A DNA stretch of 48,037 bases from Dehalococcoidia bacterium (GTDB lineage: Bacteria; Chloroflexota; Dehalococcoidia; GIF9; UBA5629). The notes below the pieces were generated by a model. That model saw only the letters and a list, made by a program, of their open reading frames with translations, did not search any database and had not been told where the DNA came from. Shown here one piece after another: positions 3,775-48,004 of the stretch (position 1 is the first letter of the stretch; every line of letters begins with the position of its first letter). Location of the stretch: NCBI GenBank assembly GCA_016930155.1, contig JAFGHL010000092.1:1-48037 (forward strand), given 5' to 3'. Both the position numbers and the translations under genes were made by a program.

Positions 3775-6411
3775 ATGTTTAATCTCCTGAAACGCATGGC
3801 AAGGCCGTCGCTTGCGGCACTGGCGCTGGCGTTGTCTCTCTCTATCATACCCCTGCCCGCGCAGGCCGGACGCATGATCTGGAGCACGGTGGACACACCC
3901 GGTATCCAGTTCAATGTCGTTTCCAGCCCCGGCGAGATCAACTTCCTGGCCCAGTCCAGGGACGGCCGCACTTTTTATTCTTCGGACACATCGCAGGGCA
4001 GACTATATCGATCGGACGACTCGGGAGTGAGCTGGCTGGAGATCAGCGGCAATCTGATTGCAGCCGGGGCCGGACTTCCAGCCTGGAATATATCCGTCTC
4101 TCCCGACAACCCACAGTTCGTCGCCGTGGTGACCAGTTCCGGCAACCGTCCCAGGCAGGTTTACGTCTCGCAGGATGGAGGGCAAACGTGGAACGACACG
4201 GCCTTCCCCACCGCTGCCGACATCGGCGCGCTGGCAATATCCCCTTACTACGGGATTTGCGATATCGCAGCCGGCACTCGTTCAGGCGGCGCGGGCGATG
4301 TCTATATATACAAGGTCGGCGGCGTGGGCGGCGCCTGGTCCGCGCAGGGATTTAGCGGCGACGTGCTGTCTATATGCTTTCCATCGTCCTACCGGGCTGA
4401 TCCCTCCATAGCCGTGCTTTACTCCACTGCCGCAGGCGCCTTTTTCAACGCGGGCGTACATGATCTGAATGCCAATACCACCAGCTGGGATACGGTCTTC
4501 GGCGGCAACCCGCCCGAGATAACGGTGAGCGGGGCAGGCGGATCACCCAAAGCTGCGCAGATAGTGAGCGGTTGCCTTCAGCTCACAGCCGATTACTCGG
4601 GACAGGCGCCCGCATTGTGCCGGGCCTATATAAGCATCGATGCGCCGGGCGCCAACTCCGGTATATTCAGGGTGGATGACGCCGTGGTCTATCAGCTGAT
4701 GGCCGCGCAGCCCAACCGCCGCATCTCCAGCATAGCCTATTACGGCACCTATTCGGGCGGCAAACTGCTGGCGGGAGCGGTAACCGGTGACGCCGCGCAG
4801 GGTACGGTGTTGACCTGGTTCACCGATACTCCCATGACCTGTCCCACCGCCTGCTGGTACCAGACCGAGAAGCCGCCTACCGGCGCCGCCGCCTCCGGCT
4901 ACGGCAATGCCATTGTGATGTGGTCGCCTGACGGCAGCCGCGCTTTTTGCGGCACCGGGTCGGCGATGCTCAACGGCCCGGCCGCCTGGCCGGGAGGATA
5001 TCTCATCGGCACGCCGCTGGACGAATCCGCCTTCTCACTGAGCAAAGACAACGGTAAGACCTGGAACCAGCTCAGCCTGATAGATACACAGCTTAGCTTT
5101 CTCTCGGACGTGGCCGTCAGGGCGGATTCCAGCGTGATCTACCTGGCCTCGATCAACGATTCCGCCGCAGGCCTGGACAGCATCTGGCGCTCGGGCGGGT
5201 CGGTTACCGGCAAATCCTGGGAGCGCGTGCTCTGCCTGCCCGCGGCCCGCAACGACATCATACTGCGCATGAGCAACTACGGGAACGACAGGGCGATTTT
5301 TATGTCCTCACGCGGCACGGACGACCTGCGACAATCGCAGGACGGCGGACAGACCTGGAAAGCGCAACTTCCTGCAATGAATGTGACCGACTTCTCGGTT
5401 ACTATGATCGATAACACGCGCTATCTGTATGTTATCTCCATATCCTCCATGCGCAGAGCGAACGCTTCAAAGCTGACGCCGCAGTGGTCGCAGCAGGCGC
5501 TCGTTACACTGAACGGCTGCCACACTATCTTTGCCGCTCCCAACGGCATTGTGGTGGTGGGAGGCGACGGCTCCGACAACAGAGTGGCTGCTTCCTCCGA
5601 CGCCGGCCCATTTGCGGTTACGTCGTATTTGCCGTCCTCAGGCAATATCCACGCCGTGCTTGACTACAGGTTCAGCGACACTGCGGTAATATACGCCGCC
5701 GGCGACTCGGCAGACAGCGATATCTACTACTGGCTGATCGGCTACAGCCGCGATTGGGACATTATGGGAGCGCCCTCGTCGGGCTTCCGGGGTCTGGCCC
5801 AGATGGGCACGCTCTATGGAGCCGCAGCCTCCGCGGGTGGCTCCTCCGTCGACAGGACGCTCTATCCTGAGTCGCTGGGGCCTCCTGTAATCGAATGGGA
5901 CATGCTGACCACGGGACTGCCCGCGGGAGTGGTATTTACCCGTGAGCCTGTTTCGCTCAAACTGTCATCGGGCGTCAACCTCTGGGCCATAGACAACAGG
6001 CCGTACGATTATACGGCGGGCACGGGAAGCCTGTGGACTTTCTGCGACTGTCTCTCCCCCTCTCCCCGCTACAGCCTGCCGTCCCCATCGCCTGCACAAC
6101 AGGAGACGGCGCCCCAACCCCTCCCTCCCACAACTCCCGTGATCCCGGCGCCGCAGACCGAAACGCCTGAATCCACTCTGCCGGGCACGTCGGATAATAT
6201 CCAGTCGACACCAGCCACCCCATCGCCAAAGTTTACGACTCCACCCCCGGATACGCCATCGCCTGCAGGCGCCACGGATAACGCCACCCTCAATCTATCC
6301 ACACTATTCACCAACGACATCTATCTATGGATATGCGCCGTAGTGGCTGTCCTGGCCATTGTGCTGATCGTAGTATTGATCGCGAACTCCATCTCGCGCA
6401 GGCGTATTTAA
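3775..6411 (+). CDS. Large exported BNR/beta-propeller protein with C-terminal membrane anchor
   Basis: 878 aa. The signal peptide ends near AQAG (about residue 32). The body contains several Asp-box/BNR-like motifs (SQDGGQTW twice, SKDNGKTW, SDDSGVSW), typical of sialidase-like or photosystem-stability-factor-like beta-propellers. These motifs give the fold, not a substrate. Residues about 760-840 form a Pro/Thr/Ser-rich stalk. A single transmembrane helix at about 846-868 ends in SRRRI, which gives a type I orientation with the propeller outside. Upstream is another membrane-anchored surface protein 52 bp away, so the two may form one envelope complex. There is no obvious strong ribosome site. 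The gene converges on the GTPase-like gene with 28 bp between them. Confidence 0.8.
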   Translation: MFNLLKRMARPSLAALALALSLSIIPLPAQAGRMIWSTVDTPGIQFNVVSSPGEINFLAQSRDGRTFYSSDTSQGRLYRSDDSGVSWLEISGNLIAAGAGLPAWNISVSPDNPQFVAVVTSSGNRPRQVYVSQDGGQTWNDTAFPTAADIGALAISPYYGICDIAAGTRSGGAGDVYIYKVGGVGGAWSAQGFSGDVLSICFPSSYRADPSIAVLYSTAAGAFFNAGVHDLNANTTSWDTVFGGNPPEITVSGAGGSPKAAQIVSGCLQLTADYSGQAPALCRAYISIDAPGANSGIFRVDDAVVYQLMAAQPNRRISSIAYYGTYSGGKLLAGAVTGDAAQGTVLTWFTDTPMTCPTACWYQTEKPPTGAAASGYGNAIVMWSPDGSRAFCGTGSAMLNGPAAWPGGYLIGTPLDESAFSLSKDNGKTWNQLSLIDTQLSFLSDVAVRADSSVIYLASINDSAAGLDSIWRSGGSVTGKSWERVLCLPAARNDIILRMSNYGNDRAIFMSSRGTDDLRQSQDGGQTWKAQLPAMNVTDFSVTMIDNTRYLYVISISSMRRANASKLTPQWSQQALVTLNGCHTIFAAPNGIVVVGGDGSDNRVAASSDAGPFAVTSYLPSSGNIHAVLDYRFSDTAVIYAAGDSADSDIYYWLIGYSRDWDIMGAPSSGFRGLAQMGTLYGAAASAGGSSVDRTLYPESLGPPVIEWDMLTTGLPAGVVFTREPVSLKLSSGVNLWAIDNRPYDYTAGTGSLWTFCDCLSPSPRYSLPSPSPAQQETAPQPLPPTTPVIPAPQTETPESTLPGTSDNIQSTPATPSPKFTTPPPDTPSPAGATDNATLNLSTLFTNDIYLWICAVVAVLAIVLIVVLIANSISRRRI

Positions 6412-33383: not shown

Positions 33384-34079
33384 TTATATTGTACAGGATG
33401 TTATCTCCGTGATTTGTCCGGTTGCGGGAACCGCTGACAGCCCATGTCCTTTGCGGGCGATGACTGTTTGAAGAAAATATGGGAATGAAGTCCTGATCTG
33501 GAAACTGGTAATGCCCGTCCTGCGAAATATTGCTTCAATCTCTTGAGCGCTATAAGCGGCCCTGAAAGAATCAAGCTCCCCCCATTTCACGGGCAACGAG
33601 CACAACCATTCTATCCTGCGGAAATCCAGGATATACAGCGCGCCGCCGGGCTGCACAGCATCCCACAGATTGCGGATAGATACGTCGGGATCTTTCCAGT
33701 GGTGTAAAGAGAAAGTCGTATAAACCAGGGCAAATGTGCCCAATTTACGCATGAATTGCTCATCGCCGACATCGCCCGGAAGGCAATGTATTCTTTTTTC
33801 CAGTTGCTTTTCCCGGATAAATTCCTCGGCGACCGCTATCATGTCGGGCGAGATATCAACTGCGGTGATCTCACTGTCAGGTTTACGCCGCGCAATCATC
33901 ATCGCAAGAAACCCGGGCCCTGAACCCATTTCAAGATAGCGGCCCGAGATGTTCAGCCCCTCGATATTTTTAATCATATTGCCATACATCAGCCCGGCAT
34001 ATTTACCAATGGATAGCGCGTATGATCTCGCATTTTCCAATCCATCAATCGCCTCTTTATGCTCCATTCTTTCAGCCAT
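33384..34079 (-). CDS. Class I SAM-dependent methyltransferase
   Basis: 231 aa, AAGGAGG ribosome site. Motif I YLEMGSGPGFLAMMIARR, ITAVDISPDMIAVAEEFI, LPGDVGDE, and the post-motif FALVYTTFSLHHWKDPDVSIRNLWDAVQPGG indicate a UbiE/Methyltransf_11-like small-molecule methyltransferase. Its substrate cannot be inferred. The gene lies downstream of tetR on the same strand (165 bp gap with a terminator), so it is probably transcribed separately. Confidence 0.85.
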   Translation of the reverse strand: MAERMEHKEAIDGLENARSYALSIGKYAGLMYGNMIKNIEGLNISGRYLEMGSGPGFLAMMIARRKPDSEITAVDISPDMIAVAEEFIREKQLEKRIHCLPGDVGDEQFMRKLGTFALVYTTFSLHHWKDPDVSIRNLWDAVQPGGALYILDFRRIEWLCSLPVKWGELDSFRAAYSAQEIEAIFRRTGITSFQIRTSFPYFLQTVIARKGHGLSAVPATGQITEITSCTI

Positions 34080-34216
34080 TTTGACCTCCTTTGTAAATTC
34101 ATTAATTTACCTGCATTTAGCCGCACATATGAGAATAGCCCGCGCTCAAGGTCTGTAATCTTTCAGAATCAGTTCCACCATATATTAGTTAGTCCTTACA
34201 AAGTTATTAAGTTGTT

Positions 34217-34246
34217 AAAAAAGGCTGCCGCTTAAGACAACCTTTT
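34217..34246 (-). terminator. Intrinsic terminator after tetR
   Basis: On the minus strand AAAAGGTTG and CAGCCTTTT form a 9-bp stem (one G-U pair) followed by T residues. It overlaps the stop codon of the TetR gene. Confidence 0.6.
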
Positions 34247-34886
34247 ATTGGCGAGCCTTACTTTTCTTAAGGCCTCCAATGAATATCTCAATAAGAGTTT
34301 CCACCACCTTATCGTCCGAGAAGGGCAGCGGAGGACCGGTTATCGCCACCGACTTATCGGCGATATGCATAAAAACCGCATCGATAAAAAGCCTCGCAGC
34401 GATCCCGGCATTGGTTTTCACGAATACCCCCTCATTTATTCTTTTTTGAATGTAATCGGTTATCAGCGTGATCATAAGAGGCTCGGTTTCATCAGACCTG
34501 GTCAGCTCCCAGAAATGGCCGCCTTCGATTGAGCTGAAAATAGCCAGTTTCATTATCCTGGGATCTTCACGATTGTGCTTGATGAAATGCAAAGCAAGCG
34601 TGCGGAAGAATCCGGCATCATCGTCTGTTTTTTTCAACTGTTTTACAAGTTCGCCACTGACCGGATGCGCATGAAACAATTTGGCCAGCGCCGCCCGTAT
34701 CAGCTCGTCCTTGGTCTTGAAATGCTGAAATATAAGCGTCTCACTGATGCCGGCGGCCTCGGCAATTTCACGTGTCCGCGTGCCGGCAAAGCCCTTCTGA
34801 GCAAAGATAGTCAGGGCGATATCAATAATCTGCGCCTTTCTGTTTTCGCCACTGAGACGCTCCCTGTCCTGCTTCTCTGATCGCAT
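34245..34886 (-). CDS. TetR/AcrR-family repressor
   Basis: 213 aa. The N-terminal HTH is typical: RKAQIIDIALTIFAQKGFAGTRTREIAEAAGISETLIFQHFKTKDELI. The C-terminal ligand-binding domain is variable and ends in GGLKKSKARQ. A promoter at 34919-34946 is followed at once by ATTAGTAA-TTAC-TTACTAAT, which indicates autoregulation. The same operator lies upstream of the DHA2-type drug exporter 8 kb away (42939-42956), so this protein probably represses that pump too, releasing it upon binding a toxic compound. Confidence 0.9.
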   Translation of the reverse strand: MRSEKQDRERLSGENRKAQIIDIALTIFAQKGFAGTRTREIAEAAGISETLIFQHFKTKDELIRAALAKLFHAHPVSGELVKQLKKTDDDAGFFRTLALHFIKHNREDPRIMKLAIFSSIEGGHFWELTRSDETEPLMITLITDYIQKRINEGVFVKTNAGIAARLFIDAVFMHIADKSVAITGPPLPFSDDKVVETLIEIFIGGLKKSKARQ

Positions 34887-34898
34887 AACCCACCTGAT

Positions 34899-34918
34899 AT
34901 TAGTAATTACTTACTAAT
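34899..34918. promoter_or_regulatory. TetR operator 1 (autoregulatory)
   Basis: ATTAGTAA-TTAC-TTACTAAT has perfect 8-bp arms and lies between the tetR -10 element and its start codon. The same sequence with 7-bp arms occurs upstream of the exporter gene. Confidence 0.7.
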
Positions 34919-34946
34919 GTTATACCAGGGCGGAGGACGCTGTCAA
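34919..34946 (-). promoter_or_regulatory. Promoter of tetR
   Basis: On the minus strand TTGACA (34946-34941) and TATAAC (34924-34919) are spaced 16 bp. The operator follows immediately, where bound repressor would block initiation. Confidence 0.65.
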
Positions 34947-40199: not shown

Positions 40200-40676
40200 T
40201 TATTCAGATGCTGCCGGGCTTATGCGCCAGGGTCCGCCGAAAAAATGGGGCTCGTTACTTACGCCACCCAGTTCTTTTTGTATACGCTCGGATTCATTGT
40301 AGGTAGTTTCCCGATAAATGCCACTAAACTCATCCCTCCTGGGCAAGTCCCTTGTAGCGTAATAGGGCGCGAGACACACAAACAGAAAAATGATTGCCAC
40401 GAGAGATAAGAGCAGCAGCGATCCCCTTTTAAAGTACTTATTAGTCAACGATTTTATCCAGCCCCAGTACAGTACGAGATGAAGGACTATCACGATGATA
40501 AATAAAAGGGATGCTCCCCAATGTAATGTGCCCCATGTATAGCGTGTGAGGCCCAAAACAGTAGTACCTGTCAATTCGGCTGGGAAACGATGAAGAATTA
40601 TGCCGGTAAACACCTGGCTCAATAACACTATAAGTATGAGTATATCCGCAATGTAGTTGGTCAATGCCCGTTTCAC
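40200..40676 (-). CDS. DUF4405 / cytochrome b-like membrane protein
   Basis: 158 aa from GTG with GGGAGG upstream. Three hydrophobic helices (about 8-28, 55-75, 88-106) carry paired histidines (GIILHRFP, GTLHWGA, IVLHLVLYWGW) that could ligate haem as in DUF4405 or cytochrome b561-like proteins. A hydrophilic tail follows with a Phe/Gly-rich end (EPHFFGGPWR). It is possibly a small electron-transfer membrane subunit, but no partner redox gene is adjacent. It lies 46 bp downstream of a methyltransferase gene on the same strand. Confidence 0.7.
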   Translation of the reverse strand: MKRALTNYIADILILIVLLSQVFTGIILHRFPAELTGTTVLGLTRYTWGTLHWGASLLFIIVIVLHLVLYWGWIKSLTNKYFKRGSLLLLSLVAIIFLFVCLAPYYATRDLPRRDEFSGIYRETTYNESERIQKELGGVSNEPHFFGGPWRISPAASE

Positions 40677-40722
40677 AATTCTTCGCCTCCCGACTTATTT
40701 TTATAAATAGTCATGCTTAACC

Positions 40723-41298
40723 TCAGGTATTATGCTTGTTAACAAATATGAAAATCCGGCCTTTTCTCTCATTGCTGACGAATCCGGCTCTTTCAACATC
40801 TTCAATTAAGCCGGCGGCGGAGCCTGTTGTTTTTTCAAAAGACAGCAGCCCTCCCGGTTTAAGGATACGGTGCATTTCAGATAGCACTCGACTGAGGCCT
40901 CCGGAAATGTAGCGGAGACCGAAAACAAAGCATAGGTCAATGCTGCTATCCGGTAATCCGCTGGACGCAGCATTTATCAGCATCGGTTTAACATTCCGTA
41001 TTCCCTGGCTGCGAATCTTTTGCTCTACTCTTGCAATGGCCAGCGGGTTAACATCCGTTGCGTAGACAATGCCCGCATCTCCCACTATTTTCGCGGCCGG
41101 AATTGTGAAGAAGCCCGGTCCACACCCAACTTCCATCACTTTCTGTCCCTGGATCAATCCTGCAGCTTCCAGCAGCCTGTAGGGATCTTTAAGACGCGGC
41201 AGCAAGGGATTGTCGTGCATCAGGCTTATCATCCAGAAAGACAAGCGAGATGTATGCAGATCATTGAAATGATTTTTTCCCTTAAATTTTGTGCTCAT
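40723..41298 (-). CDS. Class I SAM-dependent methyltransferase
   Basis: 191 aa, AAGGAAGGA ribosome site. KVMEVGCGPGFFTIPAAKIVGDAGIVYATDVNPLAIARVEQKI is motif I to II; DLCFVFGLRYI and MHRILKPGGLLSFEK follow. It is a paralogue of the protein at 47154 (GCGTGFFTIPAARLIGDGGSLVAIDV). These GFFTIPAA enzymes are small and their substrates unassigned. The gene lies between the exporter and the DUF4405 gene on the minus strand. Confidence 0.85.
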   Translation of the reverse strand: MSTKFKGKNHFNDLHTSRLSFWMISLMHDNPLLPRLKDPYRLLEAAGLIQGQKVMEVGCGPGFFTIPAAKIVGDAGIVYATDVNPLAIARVEQKIRSQGIRNVKPMLINAASSGLPDSSIDLCFVFGLRYISGGLSRVLSEMHRILKPGGLLSFEKTTGSAAGLIEDVERAGFVSNERKGRIFIFVNKHNT

Positions 41299-41366
41299 AA
41301 TTAATCCTTCCTTTAACCGATCGATTTGCCATGATTATTTCCATCCAGCCGGTAAGTGTGCCCGGC

Positions 41367-42917
41367 TTACGCGTCAGCTTTTTCCTGTTTTAGATCGCGT
41401 ACAGGCATGAACCTGAGCGTCATCACAGCGCCGGCCAGGCCAAGGGCACATATCATCAGTAATACTACCCGCCAGCCATCCATGTAACTCTGTCCCGCCA
41501 GTAATGCTATATCTCCCTGGATGTTCTCAGGAAGCGTACCTGCAATTTTCACTGCGGCTCCCACCGACTCCACGGCAATCCCGTAAATTCGATCCGGGAC
41601 AGACGAAAAAGCAGCAAGCGCCGCCGCCATCTGCAACTTATATACGCTGCTGAGCGCCGAGCCTATTGCAGCAACGCCCAGCGCCCCTCCAATTTGTAAT
41701 GAGACATTGCCAATAGCCGAACCGACACCCGCGCGGCCTGCCGGCACTGCACCCAGCACGGCATTCAGAGAAGGTGTCATGATGTTACCTAAAAAGAAAC
41801 TCAGGGCGAATATCAGCACACCGATCTGCCAGTAAGCAGTATCTATCTGCCAGAATGAGATAACAAAGGCCACGGCTGCCATGCCCAGGAAACCGGATGC
41901 TACGACATACTTTGTACCCCGGAGTCTGACAAAGCGGTTGCTCAGCACCGAGCCTGAAGCGTAGCCTAAAGCAATCGGCAGAAACCGTATACCTGTCTCC
42001 AACGGGGAATAGTTTTTAACAAATTGCATATACATCGTGAGTACGAAAAGCACCCCGAACATAGTGACAGCCATCAAGCCAATGCTACCGGCTCCCATGG
42101 ACAGGCTCGGGTTACGGAAAAGCCCGATATCCAGCATGGGTGCAACAGCCTTCTTTTCCCATTGGACAAACAGGTATCCAAGAATTATGGCGCCTGCCAG
42201 ACAGACCATCACTACCGGATTTGCCCAGCCCCAGTCGCTACCCTTGATTAGTCCGAAAACCAGTACAAACAATGTTAGGGCGGACAATAAGGTACCCGGG
42301 ATATCGAGCCTGCGGGGCATGGGATCGCAGCTATTGGGCACAAGGAACCATCCGGCAATCAGCGCCGTAGCCACAATCGGCACATTAATGAAGAAGACAG
42401 CATTCCAATCAAACTGCTCGATCAGCATTCCACCCAGGAGCGGACCCAGGGCCACTCCTACGCCATTCATGGCGCCCCATATTCCAATAGCCTTGCTACG
42501 CTCTTCTTCCGGGAATATGTTCGTAATTATCGCCAGAGTTGCCGGCATTATCATAGCAGCGCCTGCGCCCATGAAGACACGCGCCAGTATCAGTTGCCAG
42601 GCTGAGACGGAAAACACAGCAGCCAGGCTGGCTATCCCGAACACAGTCATACCGGCGCGCAGCATTGTTGCCCGCCCTATGCGGTCGCTGAGCGTACCCA
42701 TCGTAAGCAGTAACATGGCAAATGAAAGAATGTAGGCATCTACGATCCACTGAAGCTCCGACACGGTGGCGCCAAATTCACGCTGTATGGTCGGCAGCGC
42801 CACGTTAAGTATGGTGTGGTCAATAACAACGATCAGGATCGCCAGCGCCAGCACGGAGAAAGCCCACCATCGGCGACCGTAGATCCGTTCCTCATCCAAT
42901 GCCCGATTTATAATCAT
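41367..42917 (-). CDS. DHA2-family (EmrB/QacA) 14-TM drug exporter
   Basis: 516 aa with GGGAGG upstream. About 14 transmembrane helices. LAILIVVIDHTILNVALPTIQREFGATVSELQWIVDAYIL is the N-terminal DHA2 signature, GTLSDRIGRATML is motif A, and MGAGAAMIMPATLAIITNIFP is motif C-like. It probably expels hydrophobic drugs by proton antiport. A tetR-type operator lies 22 bp upstream of the ATG, a second one overlaps the start of the transcript, and an intrinsic terminator is inside the leader. Regulation is therefore probably repression plus attenuation. No membrane-fusion partner is adjacent. Confidence 0.92.
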   Translation of the reverse strand: MIINRALDEERIYGRRWWAFSVLALAILIVVIDHTILNVALPTIQREFGATVSELQWIVDAYILSFAMLLLTMGTLSDRIGRATMLRAGMTVFGIASLAAVFSVSAWQLILARVFMGAGAAMIMPATLAIITNIFPEEERSKAIGIWGAMNGVGVALGPLLGGMLIEQFDWNAVFFINVPIVATALIAGWFLVPNSCDPMPRRLDIPGTLLSALTLFVLVFGLIKGSDWGWANPVVMVCLAGAIILGYLFVQWEKKAVAPMLDIGLFRNPSLSMGAGSIGLMAVTMFGVLFVLTMYMQFVKNYSPLETGIRFLPIALGYASGSVLSNRFVRLRGTKYVVASGFLGMAAVAFVISFWQIDTAYWQIGVLIFALSFFLGNIMTPSLNAVLGAVPAGRAGVGSAIGNVSLQIGGALGVAAIGSALSSVYKLQMAAALAAFSSVPDRIYGIAVESVGAAVKIAGTLPENIQGDIALLAGQSYMDGWRVVLLMICALGLAGAVMTLRFMPVRDLKQEKADA

Positions 42918-42938
42918 TATACTGATACCTCCCTAATT

Positions 42939-42956
42939 TTAGTAATTACTTACTAA
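42939..42956. promoter_or_regulatory. TetR operator 2 upstream of exporter
   Basis: TTAGTAA-TTAC-TTACTAA is identical over 18 bases to the core of the tetR autoregulatory operator at 34899-34918. It lies in the exporter leader, just upstream of the ribosome site. Confidence 0.7.
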
Positions 42957-43026
42957 GTTTTTCTGCTCTTAAAAAAGGCGCGCGGGCCGCTAATCCCGGC
43001 GCGCCCAGATATTCACTCACCATCAT
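42946..43026 (-). CDS. Possible 26-codon leader peptide of the exporter (tentative)
   Basis: On the minus strand ATGATG at 43026-43021 opens a 26-codon frame (MMVSEYLGAPGLAARAPFLR...) that runs through the leader terminator and stops at TAA 42948-42946. It starts about 15 nt after the predicted transcript start and has no Shine-Dalgarno. A ribosome stalled or moving here could disrupt the hairpin. The hairpin's GC content forces Ala/Arg/Gly/Pro codons, so the ORF may be chance. Confidence 0.3.
   Translation of the reverse strand: MMVSEYLGAPGLAARAPFLRAEKLSK
42971..43005 (-). terminator. Intrinsic terminator inside the exporter 5' leader (attenuator)
   Basis: On the minus strand GGCGCGCCGGG, loop ATTAGCGG, CCCGCGCGCC and a run of six T form a classical Rho-independent terminator with a 10-bp GC stem and one bulged C. 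It lies between the exporter promoter (43048-43076) and the exporter start codon, and no minus-strand gene lies immediately upstream to be terminated. Most transcripts should therefore stop here unless an antiterminating event occurs. Confidence 0.75.
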
Positions 43027-43028
43027 TA

Positions 43029-43046
43029 TTACTAAGTACTTACTAA
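43029..43046. promoter_or_regulatory. Third, degenerate TetR operator
   Basis: TTACTAAGTACTTACTAA read on the minus strand matches the TetR operator at 16 of 18 positions. It adjoins the exporter -10 element and would cover the transcription start. Confidence 0.55.
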
Positions 43047-43047
43047 T

Positions 43048-43076
43048 AATATATCACCTTGATTTTCTTTTGTCAA
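43048..43076 (-). promoter_or_regulatory. Promoter of the drug exporter
   Basis: On the minus strand TTGACA (43076-43071) and TATATT (43053-43048) with 17 bp spacing. The layout (promoter then operator) is the same as at tetR. Confidence 0.7.
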
Positions 43077-43267
43077 GACCCCCCCAGCCCACACGGGGAA
43101 AAGTATACATCTCCATCTGCTCTGTGGCGGGTCATTGGTGACAGTTCCCGAACTTTTCTTTGCGAAGAGGTAGTTGATTCCTGGCATACAGCAGTTACTT
43201 TTGGATTATTCGAGTATCACAAAATGACTTGATCGTGTCCTTTACTTTTGTTTATCCTAATATTACA

Positions 43268-43291
43268 ATAAGTTTATTAGTGAATACTTAT
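43268..43291. promoter_or_regulatory. Candidate ArsR operator
   Basis: ATAAGT and ACTTAT are separated by 12 bp, 25-48 bp upstream of the preferred ArsR start. ArsR-family operators are commonly AT-rich imperfect inverted repeats of this type. The rest of the 43077-43267 stretch shows no gene; it holds a short GTGACAGTTCCCGAAC motif seen again in inverse form near 47890. Confidence 0.4.
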
Positions 43292-43315
43292 AGTATTTTG
43301 CATGGAGTAGCTAAA

Positions 43316-43645
43316 GTGAGCAGTATTGAGGATCAGGCAAATCTATTTGGTATCTTGGCCGACCCCACACGACTCAAGTTGCTAAGGCTACTCTCTCAGC
43401 AGCAAGCGTCAAGGGCACTTTGTGTCAATGCCCTGGCCTCCCAATTGGGTGTTTCGCAATCAGCCATCTCGCAGCATCTCAGAGTGCTAAAATCGGCTGA
43501 CCTGGTCAAAGGGGAAAGGCGCGGCTATCGTATTCATTATTTCCTGAACAAGGCAGCGTTAGTTCAGGCTCAGAAACAAATATCTGGAGTTCTCCCTTTT
43601 AGAGATAGGGAAATTGACGGAAAGGGCGCAGGTGGAGCGAGATAA
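43316..43645 (+). CDS. ArsR-family transcriptional regulator
   Basis: GTG 43316 preceded by GGAG at 8 nt is chosen (109 aa); the track's 43229 adds a poorly conserved leader. Winged-helix features are QANLFGILADPTRLKLLRLLSQ, VNALASQLGVSQSAISQHLRVLKSADLVKGERRGYRIHYFLN. No clear metal-binding Cys pair (ELCVCDL) is present, although a single Cys (ALCVNAL) sits at the equivalent helix. The signal is therefore uncertain. The stop overlaps the ABC ATPase start by 14 bp, indicating coupled expression and control of that exporter. Confidence 0.88.
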   Translation: MSSIEDQANLFGILADPTRLKLLRLLSQQQASRALCVNALASQLGVSQSAISQHLRVLKSADLVKGERRGYRIHYFLNKAALVQAQKQISGVLPFRDREIDGKGAGGAR

Positions 43646-44624
43646 CTTACCGGCTATTGTGGTTACAAACCTCACCAAGCGATTTGGTGAAGTCTTTGCA
43701 GTAAACGACATCAGTTTTCGGGTTAACAAGGGCGAGCTATTCGGCTTTCTCGGACCCAACGGCGCCGGTAAAACGACCACCATTAATATGCTTACCGGCT
43801 TATCCAGATCGGATGCAGGTAAGATTACTATTGGCGGGATAGACTGTACTCGCAATCCCAAAGCGGCTCAACACCTGACAGGTATTGTTCCCGACGAAAG
43901 CAACCTCTATCCTGAGCTGACTGGATTCGAAAACCTTGATTTCTGCGCAGCGCTCTACGGCATACGAAAAAACGAACGTGAGGCATGGTCACGAGAGCTA
44001 TTAGATACATTCGGCCTGGCCGATGCCGCCAAGCGCAAATTTGCCAATTATTCCAAGGGGATGAAACGTAAGCTCACTTTTGCTGCCGGCATAATCCACC
44101 GACCGCCCATACTGTTTCTCGACGAACCGACTACGGGAATTGATGTAGCCAGCGCTCGTCAGGTGCGGCAGATAATTGCCGATCTCCACAATAAAGGAAC
44201 GACGATCTTTCTCACCACACACTACATCGAGGAGGCTGAACGGCTCTGTGAACGGATTGCATTCATTGTAAATGGTAGAATCGTCCAGACTGACCGCACT
44301 GCAAACCTTTTGCAGCCTTTGATGGGGAAACACGTGATTATTTTCTCTGTTTCCGATTTGGAAAACCGCCTGATCAAAGAAATGGCCTCAGATTTTCCTC
44401 AATATCAATTCCAATCAGTCGCATCCAACCAGATAAGTATCGAATCAATCGAACCAGTCAACATCGGTCCGTTAGTGCGCTTTTTAGAAGAACGCAAGAT
44501 CCAAGTTACCGAAGCCCGCAGACACGCTCCCTCTCTTGAAGATGTTTTCGTCCAGGTTACCGGCATCGAAGCGGGACTAATGCGCAAGGAGAAGGAAAAA
44601 GCTGGAGGCGGGGGGAATCAGTGA
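43632..44624 (+). CDS. ABC transporter ATP-binding protein (ABC-2/DrrA type)
   Basis: GTG 43632 has GGAAAGGG 5-6 nt upstream and is preferred over the track's TTG 43614; 330 aa. Walker A is FGFLGPNGAGKTTTINML; the signature region is ANYSKGMKRKLTFAAGI; Walker B is ILFLDEPTTGID; the H-loop is LTTHYIEEAERLC. The C-terminal DUF4162-like extension (SLEDVFVQVTG) is typical of DrrA/CcmA-like exporter ATPases. It energises the permease whose start overlaps its stop by four bases (GTGA). Probably expels a drug, lipid or peptide sensed by the ArsR protein. Confidence 0.93.
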   Translation: MERDNLPAIVVTNLTKRFGEVFAVNDISFRVNKGELFGFLGPNGAGKTTTINMLTGLSRSDAGKITIGGIDCTRNPKAAQHLTGIVPDESNLYPELTGFENLDFCAALYGIRKNEREAWSRELLDTFGLADAAKRKFANYSKGMKRKLTFAAGIIHRPPILFLDEPTTGIDVASARQVRQIIADLHNKGTTIFLTTHYIEEAERLCERIAFIVNGRIVQTDRTANLLQPLMGKHVIIFSVSDLENRLIKEMASDFPQYQFQSVASNQISIESIEPVNIGPLVRFLEERKIQVTEARRHAPSLEDVFVQVTGIEAGLMRKEKEKAGGGGNQ

Positions 44625-45358
44625 AACGCTGGATCGCTTTCTCGAACATCTTTATCAAGGATATGCGGACTTATTACCTTAAGCCCCCCAACATCAGCTG
44701 GGGCATTATATTCCCACTGGCCTGGACGGGAATGTTTTTTATCAGGTCAGGGAGCGGATTGGAAAGCGTACTGGAACTCCTGCCGGGCGTAGTGACTATC
44801 GCCATACTGTTCGGCACTACTTCGTTGTTGTCAGTGACCATTACCTTCGAGAGACGAAGTCGGTCGTTTGAAAGGTTGCTTCTCGCACCTATCTCTCTTG
44901 AATTACTTATGCTGGCCAAGACCTCCGGAGCTATCCTCTTCGGTATCGTCAATGCGTTTGTCCCTATAGCAATCGCTGCATTTCTGGCAGATCTGTCGGG
45001 AATCGCCTGGTCTTCGGTTGTACCTGCCATAATCCTCATTAGTATCGTATCGACCTTCCTCGGGCTTTTTATATCGGTCTCTGTAAGCGAGGTATTTGAA
45101 GCGCAGACCTTTTCAAACTTCTTCCGATTCCCGATGATATTCCTGTGCGGACTATTCTTCCCGATATTATCGCTGCCCGTATTCATTCGCCCTCTTTCTT
45201 ATGTATTGCCTGTGATGTACGGTGTTGATATTCTCCATGGGGCGGTTAACAGCGAACACATCATGTCTTTCACCCTTGATTTCCTTATACTCTGTACATT
45301 CTGTGTTGTTCTATTTGTATTGAGCCTGTTTAATATAAAGCGGAAGTGGATTACTTGA
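44621..45358 (+). CDS. ABC-2 type permease
   Basis: 245 aa from GTG overlapping the ATPase stop. Six transmembrane helices in the ABC-2 pattern, with TITFERRSRSFERLLLAPISLELLMLAKTSGAILFG and the C-terminal SYVLPVMYGVDILHGAV, similar to DrrB/NodJ-type permeases. Together with the ATPase it forms a homodimeric-permease exporter. No terminator with T-run follows; the 210-bp gap downstream is rich in hairpins. Confidence 0.92.
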   Translation: MKRWIAFSNIFIKDMRTYYLKPPNISWGIIFPLAWTGMFFIRSGSGLESVLELLPGVVTIAILFGTTSLLSVTITFERRSRSFERLLLAPISLELLMLAKTSGAILFGIVNAFVPIAIAAFLADLSGIAWSSVVPAIILISIVSTFLGLFISVSVSEVFEAQTFSNFFRFPMIFLCGLFFPILSLPVFIRPLSYVLPVMYGVDILHGAVNSEHIMSFTLDFLILCTFCVVLFVLSLFNIKRKWIT

Positions 45359-45568
45359 CCGCGGGCGCAGCATGAGCTCTCAGATAAATCCGGCTTCCGG
45401 CTATTTTGGTTACACCGCGAAATTTGGACCTTGAATCCACCTTTTTGGAAGGCTTTTACTCGGAAGAACCTGCCTCCGAGTAGCCCGGAATACAAGGATG
45501 CGAAACATCCTTGTCCGGAGAGTGTCTGAGGACGATGTGCTAATGGGATACCCGGGTGCTCATATATC
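45359..45568. other. Hairpin-rich convergent intergenic region
   Basis: This non-coding 210 bp separates convergent genes. It contains ACAAGGATG-CGAAA-CATCCTTGT, a perfect 9-bp stem, TACTCGG...CCGAGTA, and GTCC/GGAC flanks that could extend the first hairpin. No coding signature was seen; the minus ORF 45199-45624 is poor. It may be a bidirectional transcription terminator region, a structured RNA or a decayed mobile element end. Confidence 0.4.
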
Positions 45569-45865
45569 CTATATACCGTCAAACCATCCGTAGTAATATT
45601 TTCGCAGGTACTCTTCATGAGCATATGTTACGGCGACGTCCTCCTCTCTAAAAGAATACCTGTAATCATTACAGTAACCCATTAGCAACTTATACGCCCA
45701 ATTCAGTTTCTTCATAATTTCAGTCTCATCAACACCACCACTATGCTTATCGGGATGATAACGGTGGGCAAGTCTTTTATAAGCACTTTCAATATCCTTT
45801 AGAGATGCTGTATCGCGCAGCCCCAGAAATTTTCGTGCCTCATCTATCTCATCAAAATTAGCCAT
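45569..45865 (-). CDS. J-domain (DnaJ-like) protein
   Basis: ATG 45865 (MANFDEIDEARKFLGL) is preferred over the track's 45922, giving 98 aa. A complete J domain: EARKFLGLRDTASLKDIESAYKRLAHRYHPDKHSGG, with the HPD motif that stimulates DnaK ATPase, then MKKLNWAYKLLMGYCNDYRYSF. There is no G/F or zinc domain, so it is a type III co-chaperone whose short C-terminal tail (HEEYLRKYYYGWFDGI) may define the client. It lies 13 bp downstream of a methyltransferase gene, suggesting co-expression. Confidence 0.88.
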   Translation of the reverse strand: MANFDEIDEARKFLGLRDTASLKDIESAYKRLAHRYHPDKHSGGVDETEIMKKLNWAYKLLMGYCNDYRYSFREEDVAVTYAHEEYLRKYYYGWFDGI

Positions 45866-45878
45866 AACCTCAATTATC

Positions 45879-46592
45879 CTACCTTGGCAGTGCCCCTCCG
45901 CTGCCTTTCTTCCCGGCCACAATTATCACAAACCCGGCGGAGGGCGAAAAGCCGTCCCGTGGTAATTCTACCTGTTCTACCTTGCCCGGATCTTGGAAAA
46001 GCGTCGAAATAACTGTCTCAACCAGGAAACCAGCTTGTTCCATCAATATCACCACTTCATCATAATTGTAAAAGTTAGCATACTTATAGAATCGATGGCC
46101 CTTTTTCTTCTTCTGCACGTAGAATTTACCCCAGGGGCTCTCTCTCAGTACCAGGCCCAATACTACCTTACCTTCGGGCGACAAAACACGGAGAGTTTCC
46201 TTCAAGACATTAAGGGGCGAGTGGAAAAAGCAGAAGGTCATGATAAAGAATGCGGTACCGAAGGATGCCGTATCAAATGGTTGCTGCTCTCCTTTACCTA
46301 AAAGTGCGGTGATTCCCCGCTTTCTGGCTATCTCAAGCAGTTTGATAGAAGGGTCCAGCCCTATCTCTATACCCAAAGCATAAGCGAAGCGGCCGCTACC
46401 TATCCCGATTTCAACCCAGGGTTTGGGCAGGGAAGCCAGAATTTTTTGGAAAGCTTGCACCTCGGTGGCGAATATGAGCTTGCCATCTACTTCATACCAC
46501 TCGTCGTAAACTGAAGACAGGGAGTCAAACAATGCTGCTCCGGCGCAGGGAGTTTCAGTTTTATTTGGAGATAGCTGTCTGTGTTTTTTCAT
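45879..46592 (-). CDS. Class I SAM-dependent methyltransferase
   Basis: 237 aa with AAGGAGGGAG ribosome site. FDSLSSVYDEWYEVDGKLIFATEVQAFQKIL and WVEIGIGSGRFAYALGIEIGLDPSIKLLEIARKRG (motif I to II) plus VLKETLRVLSPEGKVVLGLV identify a Methyltransf_11-type enzyme. The N-terminal YDxWYxxxxG pattern is typical of a group found in anaerobes. Substrate unassigned. It is followed by the J-domain gene. Confidence 0.87.
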   Translation of the reverse strand: MKKHRQLSPNKTETPCAGAALFDSLSSVYDEWYEVDGKLIFATEVQAFQKILASLPKPWVEIGIGSGRFAYALGIEIGLDPSIKLLEIARKRGITALLGKGEQQPFDTASFGTAFFIMTFCFFHSPLNVLKETLRVLSPEGKVVLGLVLRESPWGKFYVQKKKKGHRFYKYANFYNYDEVVILMEQAGFLVETVISTLFQDPGKVEQVELPRDGFSPSAGFVIIVAGKKGSGGALPR

Positions 46593-46640
46593 ATTCTCCC
46601 TCCTTATCAGGATAGACCGATAGTATTTTATTTGGCAAGA

Positions 46641-46709
46641 TCAAAACCAGCCGGAAACAAATTCGCTCTTGCCGGTATTCATCCGGATGGTATGCTTCGT
46701 TGCAATCAT
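46641..46709 (-). pseudogene. 5' remnant of ilvH (acetolactate synthase small subunit)
   Basis: On the minus strand an ATG overlapping the ilvB remnant's TGA stop (ATGA) reads MIATKHTIRMNTGKSEFVSGWF then a stop. IlvH/IlvN proteins begin with a KHTIxVLVEN..GVLxRVSGLF pattern, so KHTI and FVSGWF look like a damaged copy. Only 22 codons remain; the rest of the gene is missing before the methyltransferase promoter region. Confidence 0.5.
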
Positions 46710-46936
46710 GCTTCTACCTCCTTTACCGGCATCTCCATAAGCTGGGCCAGGGACGCTCCCGGGGGTACCATTGGATAAACGTTTTCCTCGGGCTCTATCA
46801 CAAAATCTATGAGGAAAGGGCCCCGATATTTCATTGCCTTTTGAATGGAAGGAATCACTTCTTCTCTGTGCTCAACTCTCAGTGCCGGTATGCCAAATGA
46901 ATCAGCAAACTTAATAAGATGGTTGACTGATAATGC
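46706..46936 (-). pseudogene. C-terminal remnant of ilvB (acetolactate synthase large subunit)
   Basis: The minus-strand frame between stops at 46939-46937 and 46708-46706 reads VNHLIKFADSFGIPALRVEHREEV, then PFLIDFVIEPEENVYPMVPPGASLAQL. This is the conserved C-terminal end of IlvB-type thiamine-diphosphate enzymes (FGIPxLRV..REEV, DFVxxPEENVYPMVPPGASL). The preceding ~480 residues of a full protein are absent, because unrelated sequence begins at about 46937. It does not appear in the ORF track. It is a fossil of an ilvBH operon. Confidence 0.85.
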
Positions 46937-47153
46937 TCAAAACGCATCCGCACAATCCAAGCAAATGCACCTAATATCTATACTACAGGTGAAAGCCTAT
47001 AATGGTAATAGTTTTATTGCCATAAATTGCGCAATGTTGGATCAACAATGATCTATTTGTTATTATTAGCATATGCGAATTTCACGCAATACGTCGCCTG
47101 AAAAGGTTAGCTAGCCAATAATACCGGCATTCAGGTACGAGAGGAATGGGGAT

Positions 47154-47931: not shown

Positions 47932-48004
47932 TGGACCTGGGGAGATTCGAACTCCCGACCTCCTGAATGCAAATCAGGCGCTCTCCCAATTGAGCTACAG
48001 GCCC
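47932..48004 (-). tRNA. tRNA-Ala (TGC)
   Basis: On the minus strand 73 nt fold as a complete cloverleaf: acceptor GGGCCTG/CAGGTCC with discriminator A, D arm GCTCAATTGGGAGAGC, anticodon stem CCTGA/TCAGG around loop TTTGCAT (anticodon TGC), and T arm GGGAGTTCGAATCTCCC. CCA is not encoded. The nearby ORF ending in GRFELPTS is an artefact of reading this tRNA in reverse. Confidence 0.95.

Follow-up and report, generated by a model that had tools for sequence, protein, structure and literature searches.

What decides whether a transcript that starts at a drug-exporter promoter reaches the exporter gene, when an intrinsic terminator stands between the two? The locus that raises this question lies on the minus strand of a contig from a Dehalococcoidia bacterium (Chloroflexota), and the whole 48,037-nucleotide stretch that was analysed is called the window below. 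An earlier sequence-only reading had likened the terminator to an attenuator, possibly with a leader peptide, that responds to ribosome stalling, in combination with TetR repression. Our analysis suggests that the terminator is coupled to a repressor rather than controlled by ribosomes.

The exporter leader and its terminator

The leader and the genes that follow it comprise, in the direction of transcription, the following features.

43048–43076, minus strand: exporter promoter TTGACA-17-TATATT, of the sigma-70 type, matching 11/12 consensus positions, with a TG-extended -10 element
43029–43046, minus strand: operator O1, TTAGTAAGTACTTAGTAA, an 18-bp palindrome lying over the predicted transcript start and sharing its motif with the tetR-promoter operator
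42946–43026, minus strand: 26-codon frame MMVSEYLGAPGLAARAPFLRAEKLSK, judged non-functional as a leader peptide
42977–43005, minus strand: terminator hairpin GGCGCGCCGGGATTAGCGGCCCGCGCGCC, with a 10-bp GC stem (7+3 bp with one bulge)
42971–42976, minus strand: U-tract (T6) directly 3' of the hairpin
42957–42970, minus strand: 14-nt spacer from the U-tract to O2, equal in length to that in the tetR–methyltransferase gap
42939–42956, minus strand: operator O2, TTAGTAAGTAATTACTAA, with the same sequence as the operator of the tetR promoter and immediately 5' of the exporter ribosome-binding site
42926–42936, minus strand: exporter Shine–Dalgarno sequence TTAGGGAGGTA, pairing with the anti-Shine–Dalgarno at -11.4 kcal/mol
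41367–42917, minus strand: DHA2-family MFS multidrug exporter of 516 aa (TIGR00711 efflux_EmrB, 230.5 bits, cut-off 230.2)
40723–41298, minus strand: SAM methyltransferase (Pfam Methyltransf_25) downstream of the exporter, with which it is likely co-transcribed

The exporter scores just above the cut-off of the efflux_EmrB model and below those of the SmvA-, LfrA- and QacA-like models. Its transcript is predicted to start at about 43041 on the minus strand, and the 36 nt upstream of the hairpin have little structure. The GC-rich hairpin and the U-tract that follows it are the two hallmarks of an intrinsic terminator, and the hairpin with its tail (43005–42977 plus tail) folds at -20.5 kcal/mol. 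The sequence-only reading was thus right in placing a 10-bp GC hairpin with T6 on the minus strand between the exporter promoter and the start codon. In a survey of 795 kb of the 2.6 Mb genome, with crude gene calling (ORFs of at least 90 codons), 43 terminators were counted (dG <= -12, at least four Ts). Only one of these, that of the exporter leader, lies in a divergent-gene leader, and most of the other non-coding ones stand at gene ends; no coding-region match in the same 795 kb combined at least six Ts with dG <= -15. The terminator of the exporter leader is real and beyond chance.

O2 is placed as a roadblock would be: counted from the predicted transcript start, it spans roughly +86 to +103 and hence lies in the transcribed region, and a promoter scan of the window detected no promoter there. 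Since O2 has no promoter of its own, its position within the transcript makes sense only if it acts on elongation or serves as an additional repressor site. Looping between O1 and O2 was considered and rejected; their centres are 90 bp apart, or 8.6 turns, which is unfavourable, and looping is unneeded.

The TetR regulator and its operators

The repressor gene and its control region lie elsewhere in the window.

34919–34946, minus strand: tetR promoter TTGACA-16-TATAAC
34900–34917, minus strand: tetR-promoter operator TTAGTAAGTAATTACTAA, directly behind the promoter, with a footprint in genomes G006 and G279
34245–34886, minus strand: cognate TetR-family repressor gene (TetR_N, PF00440, 4.3e-15), 8 kb from the exporter

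Ten matches to the operator motif are present in the window against 0.9 expected. The genome has only three perfect matches to the form TTANTAANTNNTTANTAA, namely O1, O2 and 34900–34917, all of them in a promoter or leader of tetR or the exporter. The orthologous TetR of G006, a genome of the same genus, is 84–85% identical and has the operator TTAGTAAGTAGTTACTAA at the same place; the homologue of G279, from another family of the class, is 41–43% identical and has TTAGTAAGCGATTACTTA on its tetR promoter, with a second operator before a ferredoxin–cytochrome–DHA2 exporter operon. The recognition-helix region is closely similar among these homologues. The gene thus has the features of a TetR-family autorepressor, with a TetR_N helix-turn-helix and a palindromic operator on its own promoter that is kept in orthologues. 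Because the operator is kept at the tetR promoters of homologues and the recognition helix is similar, we assign O1 and O2 with good confidence, on motif evidence, as predicted sites of the TetR encoded at 34245–34886. The earlier proposal that the exporter is under TetR repression is supported in this respect, as the cognate tetR, 8 kb away, carries the same 18-bp operator and O1 lies over the predicted transcript start.

Two further operator-like sequences were observed. On the plus strand at 43273–43293, after the divergent arsR–ABC transporter promoter, TTATTAGTGAATACTTATAG is 88% like part of O1; it could be either a weak site for TetR or an operator of the ArsR-type regulator itself. At 4845–4862 of locus L116, after another TetR gene of the same genome, there is a perfect palindrome, TTAATAACCGGTTATTAA, with no T-run or module.

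The exporter block and its probable origin

The exporter block (about 40.2–47 kb) is absent from the corresponding place in G006, and the most similar exporters from other genomes (59% and 55%, both in Desulfobacterota) have different leaders and operators. From these two facts it follows that the exporter was probably acquired and then placed under the resident TetR. When positions 40200–47000 were compared with L056, the synteny with G006 stopped around the block, which contains genes for a cytochrome-like protein, the methyltransferase, the exporter, ArsR, an ABC transporter and a DnaJ-like protein, with a tRNA at 47932–48004; it looks like an insertion in this lineage.

DHA2 exporters were also seen in tetR–ferredoxin–(cytochrome c)–exporter operons of Desulfobacterota and of a Dehalococcoidia-class genome (L022, L023 and L079), and a small ferredoxin adjoining an MFS exporter is unusual. 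In another member of the class (G133, locus L154), a hairpin with T6, AAAATCCACTATCTGAAGTGGATTTTTT, lies about 55 nt 5' of a DHA2 exporter start, behind a weak promoter-like sequence and with no operator visible.

A second module between tetR and a methyltransferase gene

A comparable series of elements follows tetR itself.

34223–34247, minus strand: second terminator hairpin, directly after tetR and overlapping its stop codon
34217–34222, minus strand: T6 U-tract of the second module
34185–34202, minus strand: operator O3, TTTGTAAGGACTAACTAA, degenerate, 14 nt past the second U-tract
33384–34079, minus strand: methyltransferase gene downstream of tetR, syntenic in G006

The second hairpin (34247–34223) folds at -13.3 kcal/mol (z -4.2), and none of 200 shuffles was as good. 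The window therefore holds the series of hairpin, T6, 14 nt and operator twice, with the same T6-to-operator distance in both modules. In G006, O3 and its flank are nearly unchanged and the rest of the tetR–methyltransferase gap has diverged; O3 is kept there, but the T-run and hairpin are not.

Similar arrangements in other loci

TetR–DHA2 exporter units of Chloroflexota were gathered via the exporter or via the TetR, and operators were found in them by an unbiased search for repeated palindromes and by inspection of the tetR–exporter gaps. An operator lies immediately 5' of the first gene of the exporter operon in six loci (G279, G604, G637, G444, G416 and PMV_1.47), and in all six a T6–8 run is found 8–11 nt before it. 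The distance is 11 nt for the TTAGTAAG-type operators of G279, G444 and G416, and 8–9 nt for the other operator types of G637, G604 and PMV_1.47, values that vary with the operator edge drawn. Hairpins are weak or absent in these six loci, and good hairpins are found only in the two window modules. In G444 (73% GC) and G416 (65% GC), T6 occurs about once per 8 kb, and the single run of each locus is the one before the operator.

Runs of at least six Ts occur in six of nine co-directional tetR–exporter pairs, compared with 2/88 other same-strand gaps of those loci and 7/153 in the genome of the window; the binomial probability is about 1e-8 to 7e-7, and serves as a guide only because part of the T-run pattern had been seen before counting. 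In the other three pairs (L022, L023 and L029), which lack a T-run, no TetR operator could be recognised between the two genes, and the tetR-promoter copies of the same operators are not preceded by a T-run. Across 121 Chloroflexota genomes, the pattern T6-N5-16-TTANTNAGTNATNAC gave three sites, all three before such exporters (the window, G444 and G416) and all three known beforehand; the A6 control of this search gave one unrelated AT-rich site.

Two other kinds of hairpin were noticed. Several viral contigs (L204, L205, L208, L209, L211 and L231) carry terminator-like hairpins and T-runs that are followed after about 9–12 nt by the palindrome AGTTAGTTAGTNATAACTAACT, of which a single stretch contains up to eight copies; this is possibly a stoperator-like system. 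Streptomyces hairpins with T5 before exporters were rejected as candidates, as they follow the upstream gene, 5' of the exporter's own promoter, and are ordinary 3' terminators.

A proposed repressor-gated terminator

The promoter, both operators, the terminator, the exact spacing, the cognate regulator and the recurrence in other loci are solid as readings of the sequence. From their arrangement we propose, judging the case to be evenly balanced, that the leader is a repressor-gated terminator, in which O2-bound TetR would keep the polymerase at the U-tract and commit it to termination. TetR at O1 would prevent transcription from starting at the exporter promoter. Any polymerase that got past this block would transcribe the GC hairpin and the six Us and, with TetR still on O2, the edge of which is 14 bp past the U-tract, would be halted. 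The RNA 3' end would then be at 42970, some 7 nt past the base of the hairpin, and the hybrid would contain six U. Being weak, this rU:dA hybrid would let the RNA go at the very position where intrinsic terminators normally release it. A ligand that removes TetR would both open initiation and lift the roadblock at the terminator, so that read-through would rise. The second module would uncouple tetR from the downstream methyltransferase in the same way.

TetR binding, polymerase stalling and TetR-dependent termination are what we infer in this scheme, and its geometry is drawn from other roadblocks. When E. coli RNA polymerase stalls at an EcoRI(E111Q) roadblock, its RNA ends 14 nt before the obstacle (PMC5499547). 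With Reb1 or Nsi1 in its path, Pol I stops 15 bp ahead of the protein, and a roadblock combined with a hairpin about 8 nt behind the RNA end leads to fast release (PMC12366685). The distance assumed for a TetR dimer is an extrapolation from these three proteins, EcoRI, Reb1 and Nsi1.

Some points speak against gating. The hairpin is strong and may be an efficient terminator even when TetR is absent, in which case expression after induction would have a ceiling. The spacing in the six other loci is 8–11 nt rather than 14, and their hairpins are weak or absent. G006 retains O3 but not the T-run and hairpin.

Alternative explanations

The main rival is that the terminator and O2 act independently. 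The terminator would be a plain constitutive one that trims leaky transcripts to a fixed fraction with no interplay with TetR, which would block initiation at O1; O2 would be an ordinary second repressor site or roadblock. We regard this as doubtful, though a serious contender. It draws on the completeness of the terminator and its stability of -20.5 kcal/mol, and on G006, where O3 persists without a terminator and so can work alone. However, it leaves unexplained why two unrelated terminators have an identical 14-nt spacing to an operator, and why hairpin-less T-runs stand 8–11 nt before operators in six loci; the repeated spacing speaks against it.

The T-tract might instead be a DNA-shape or promoter element, bending the DNA for TetR or forming part of a cryptic exporter promoter. 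The six loci that have T-runs without good hairpins would fit this explanation, but the tetR-promoter copies of the operators have no T-run, the promoter scan of the window gave no consensus match at O2, and inspection of the other loci by hand yielded no convincing one; we consider it very improbable.

Very improbable as well, in our judgement, is attenuation by a leader peptide, in which drug-stalled ribosomes would prevent the terminator from forming. The 26-codon frame on which the sequence-only reading had built this proposal is indeed present, from ATG 43026 to the stop at 42946: it begins about 15 nt past the predicted transcript start, passes through the terminator and ends inside O2. 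Control of this kind is known for drug exporters, for example bmrCD (PMC4191407). Nevertheless, no Shine–Dalgarno sequence was found at the ATG or GTG starts of the frame (duplex +0.6 kcal/mol versus -11.4 for the exporter), the leader upstream of it is 15 nt long, and its length is at chance level, since ATG frames of at least 26 codons occur in 4.4% of shuffled leaders and in 11% when any start codon is allowed. The best fold with the 5' arm of the terminator sequestered upstream reaches -11.2 kcal/mol versus -25.3 with the terminator, so the leader is without a competing antiterminator; in this check the terminator was never out-competed. No homologue of the leader as a whole, and with it no copy of the frame, was found in other genomes or plasmids, and Rfam gave no leader match at the gathering score (best E in the leader, 0.21). 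A working leader peptide, and with it ribosome-stalling attenuation, is thus not borne out.

Antitermination by a trans factor or a ligand-binding RNA is common among leader terminators, and an unrecognised second factor or riboswitch-like element could act here; with a weakly structured leader of 36 nt before the hairpin, no Rfam family and no competing fold, this is the least probable explanation.

Comparison with known systems

Autoregulated TetR–DHA2 pairs of the LfrR–LfrA, SmvR–SmvA and QacR–QacA types combine a TetR repressor, a DHA2 exporter and palindromic operators. Here, by comparison, the exporter lies 8 kb from tetR and the operators flank a terminator. The ribosome-mediated attenuators of bmrBCD (PMC4191407) and mefE/mel (PMC4335068) likewise have a terminator in the leader of an exporter gene, but they depend on a leader ORF that is translated and on an antiterminator, neither of which the present leader has.

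Roadblock repression by DNA-bound repressors is known for PurR at purB, for CodY and CcpA in Bacillus and for LacI (PMC10310618, PMC4132739). As in those systems, a repressor site lies in the transcribed region downstream of the promoter and is expected to stop elongation; clearance of the stalled polymerase is ascribed there to Mfd or Rho, whereas an intrinsic terminator or a U-tract occupies the predicted stall position here. In the stoperators of cluster A mycobacteriophages (PMC9283540), one repressor serves both promoters and downstream sites that halt elongation, but the sites are asymmetric phage sites and are not known to include a terminator or U-tract. A comparable layout is that of the Pol I terminator with Reb1 or Nsi1, which has an RNA hairpin, a T-rich tract and a roadblock about 15 bp downstream (PMC12366685); that terminator is eukaryotic and constitutive, whereas the present one is bacterial and its roadblock would be a ligand-controlled TetR.

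Our search of the open-access literature found no description of an intrinsic terminator with a bacterial repressor positioned to gate it. More tentatively than for the single leader, we suggest a general bacterial element in which a TetR-type repressor 8–14 nt past a U-tract would switch intrinsic termination on and off. With similar caution, one ligand would free both initiation and termination in this element, which would recur across Chloroflexota between tetR and exporter genes and be reinforced by a hairpin here. The signature T6, 8–14 nt, operator is offered for searches. If TetR does set termination as well as initiation, the effects of one repressor and one ligand would multiply over two layers of control, a property that would account for how little of a costly exporter is made in the basal state, and the leader would be a bacterial counterpart of the Pol I terminator with its hairpin, T-tract and roadblock.
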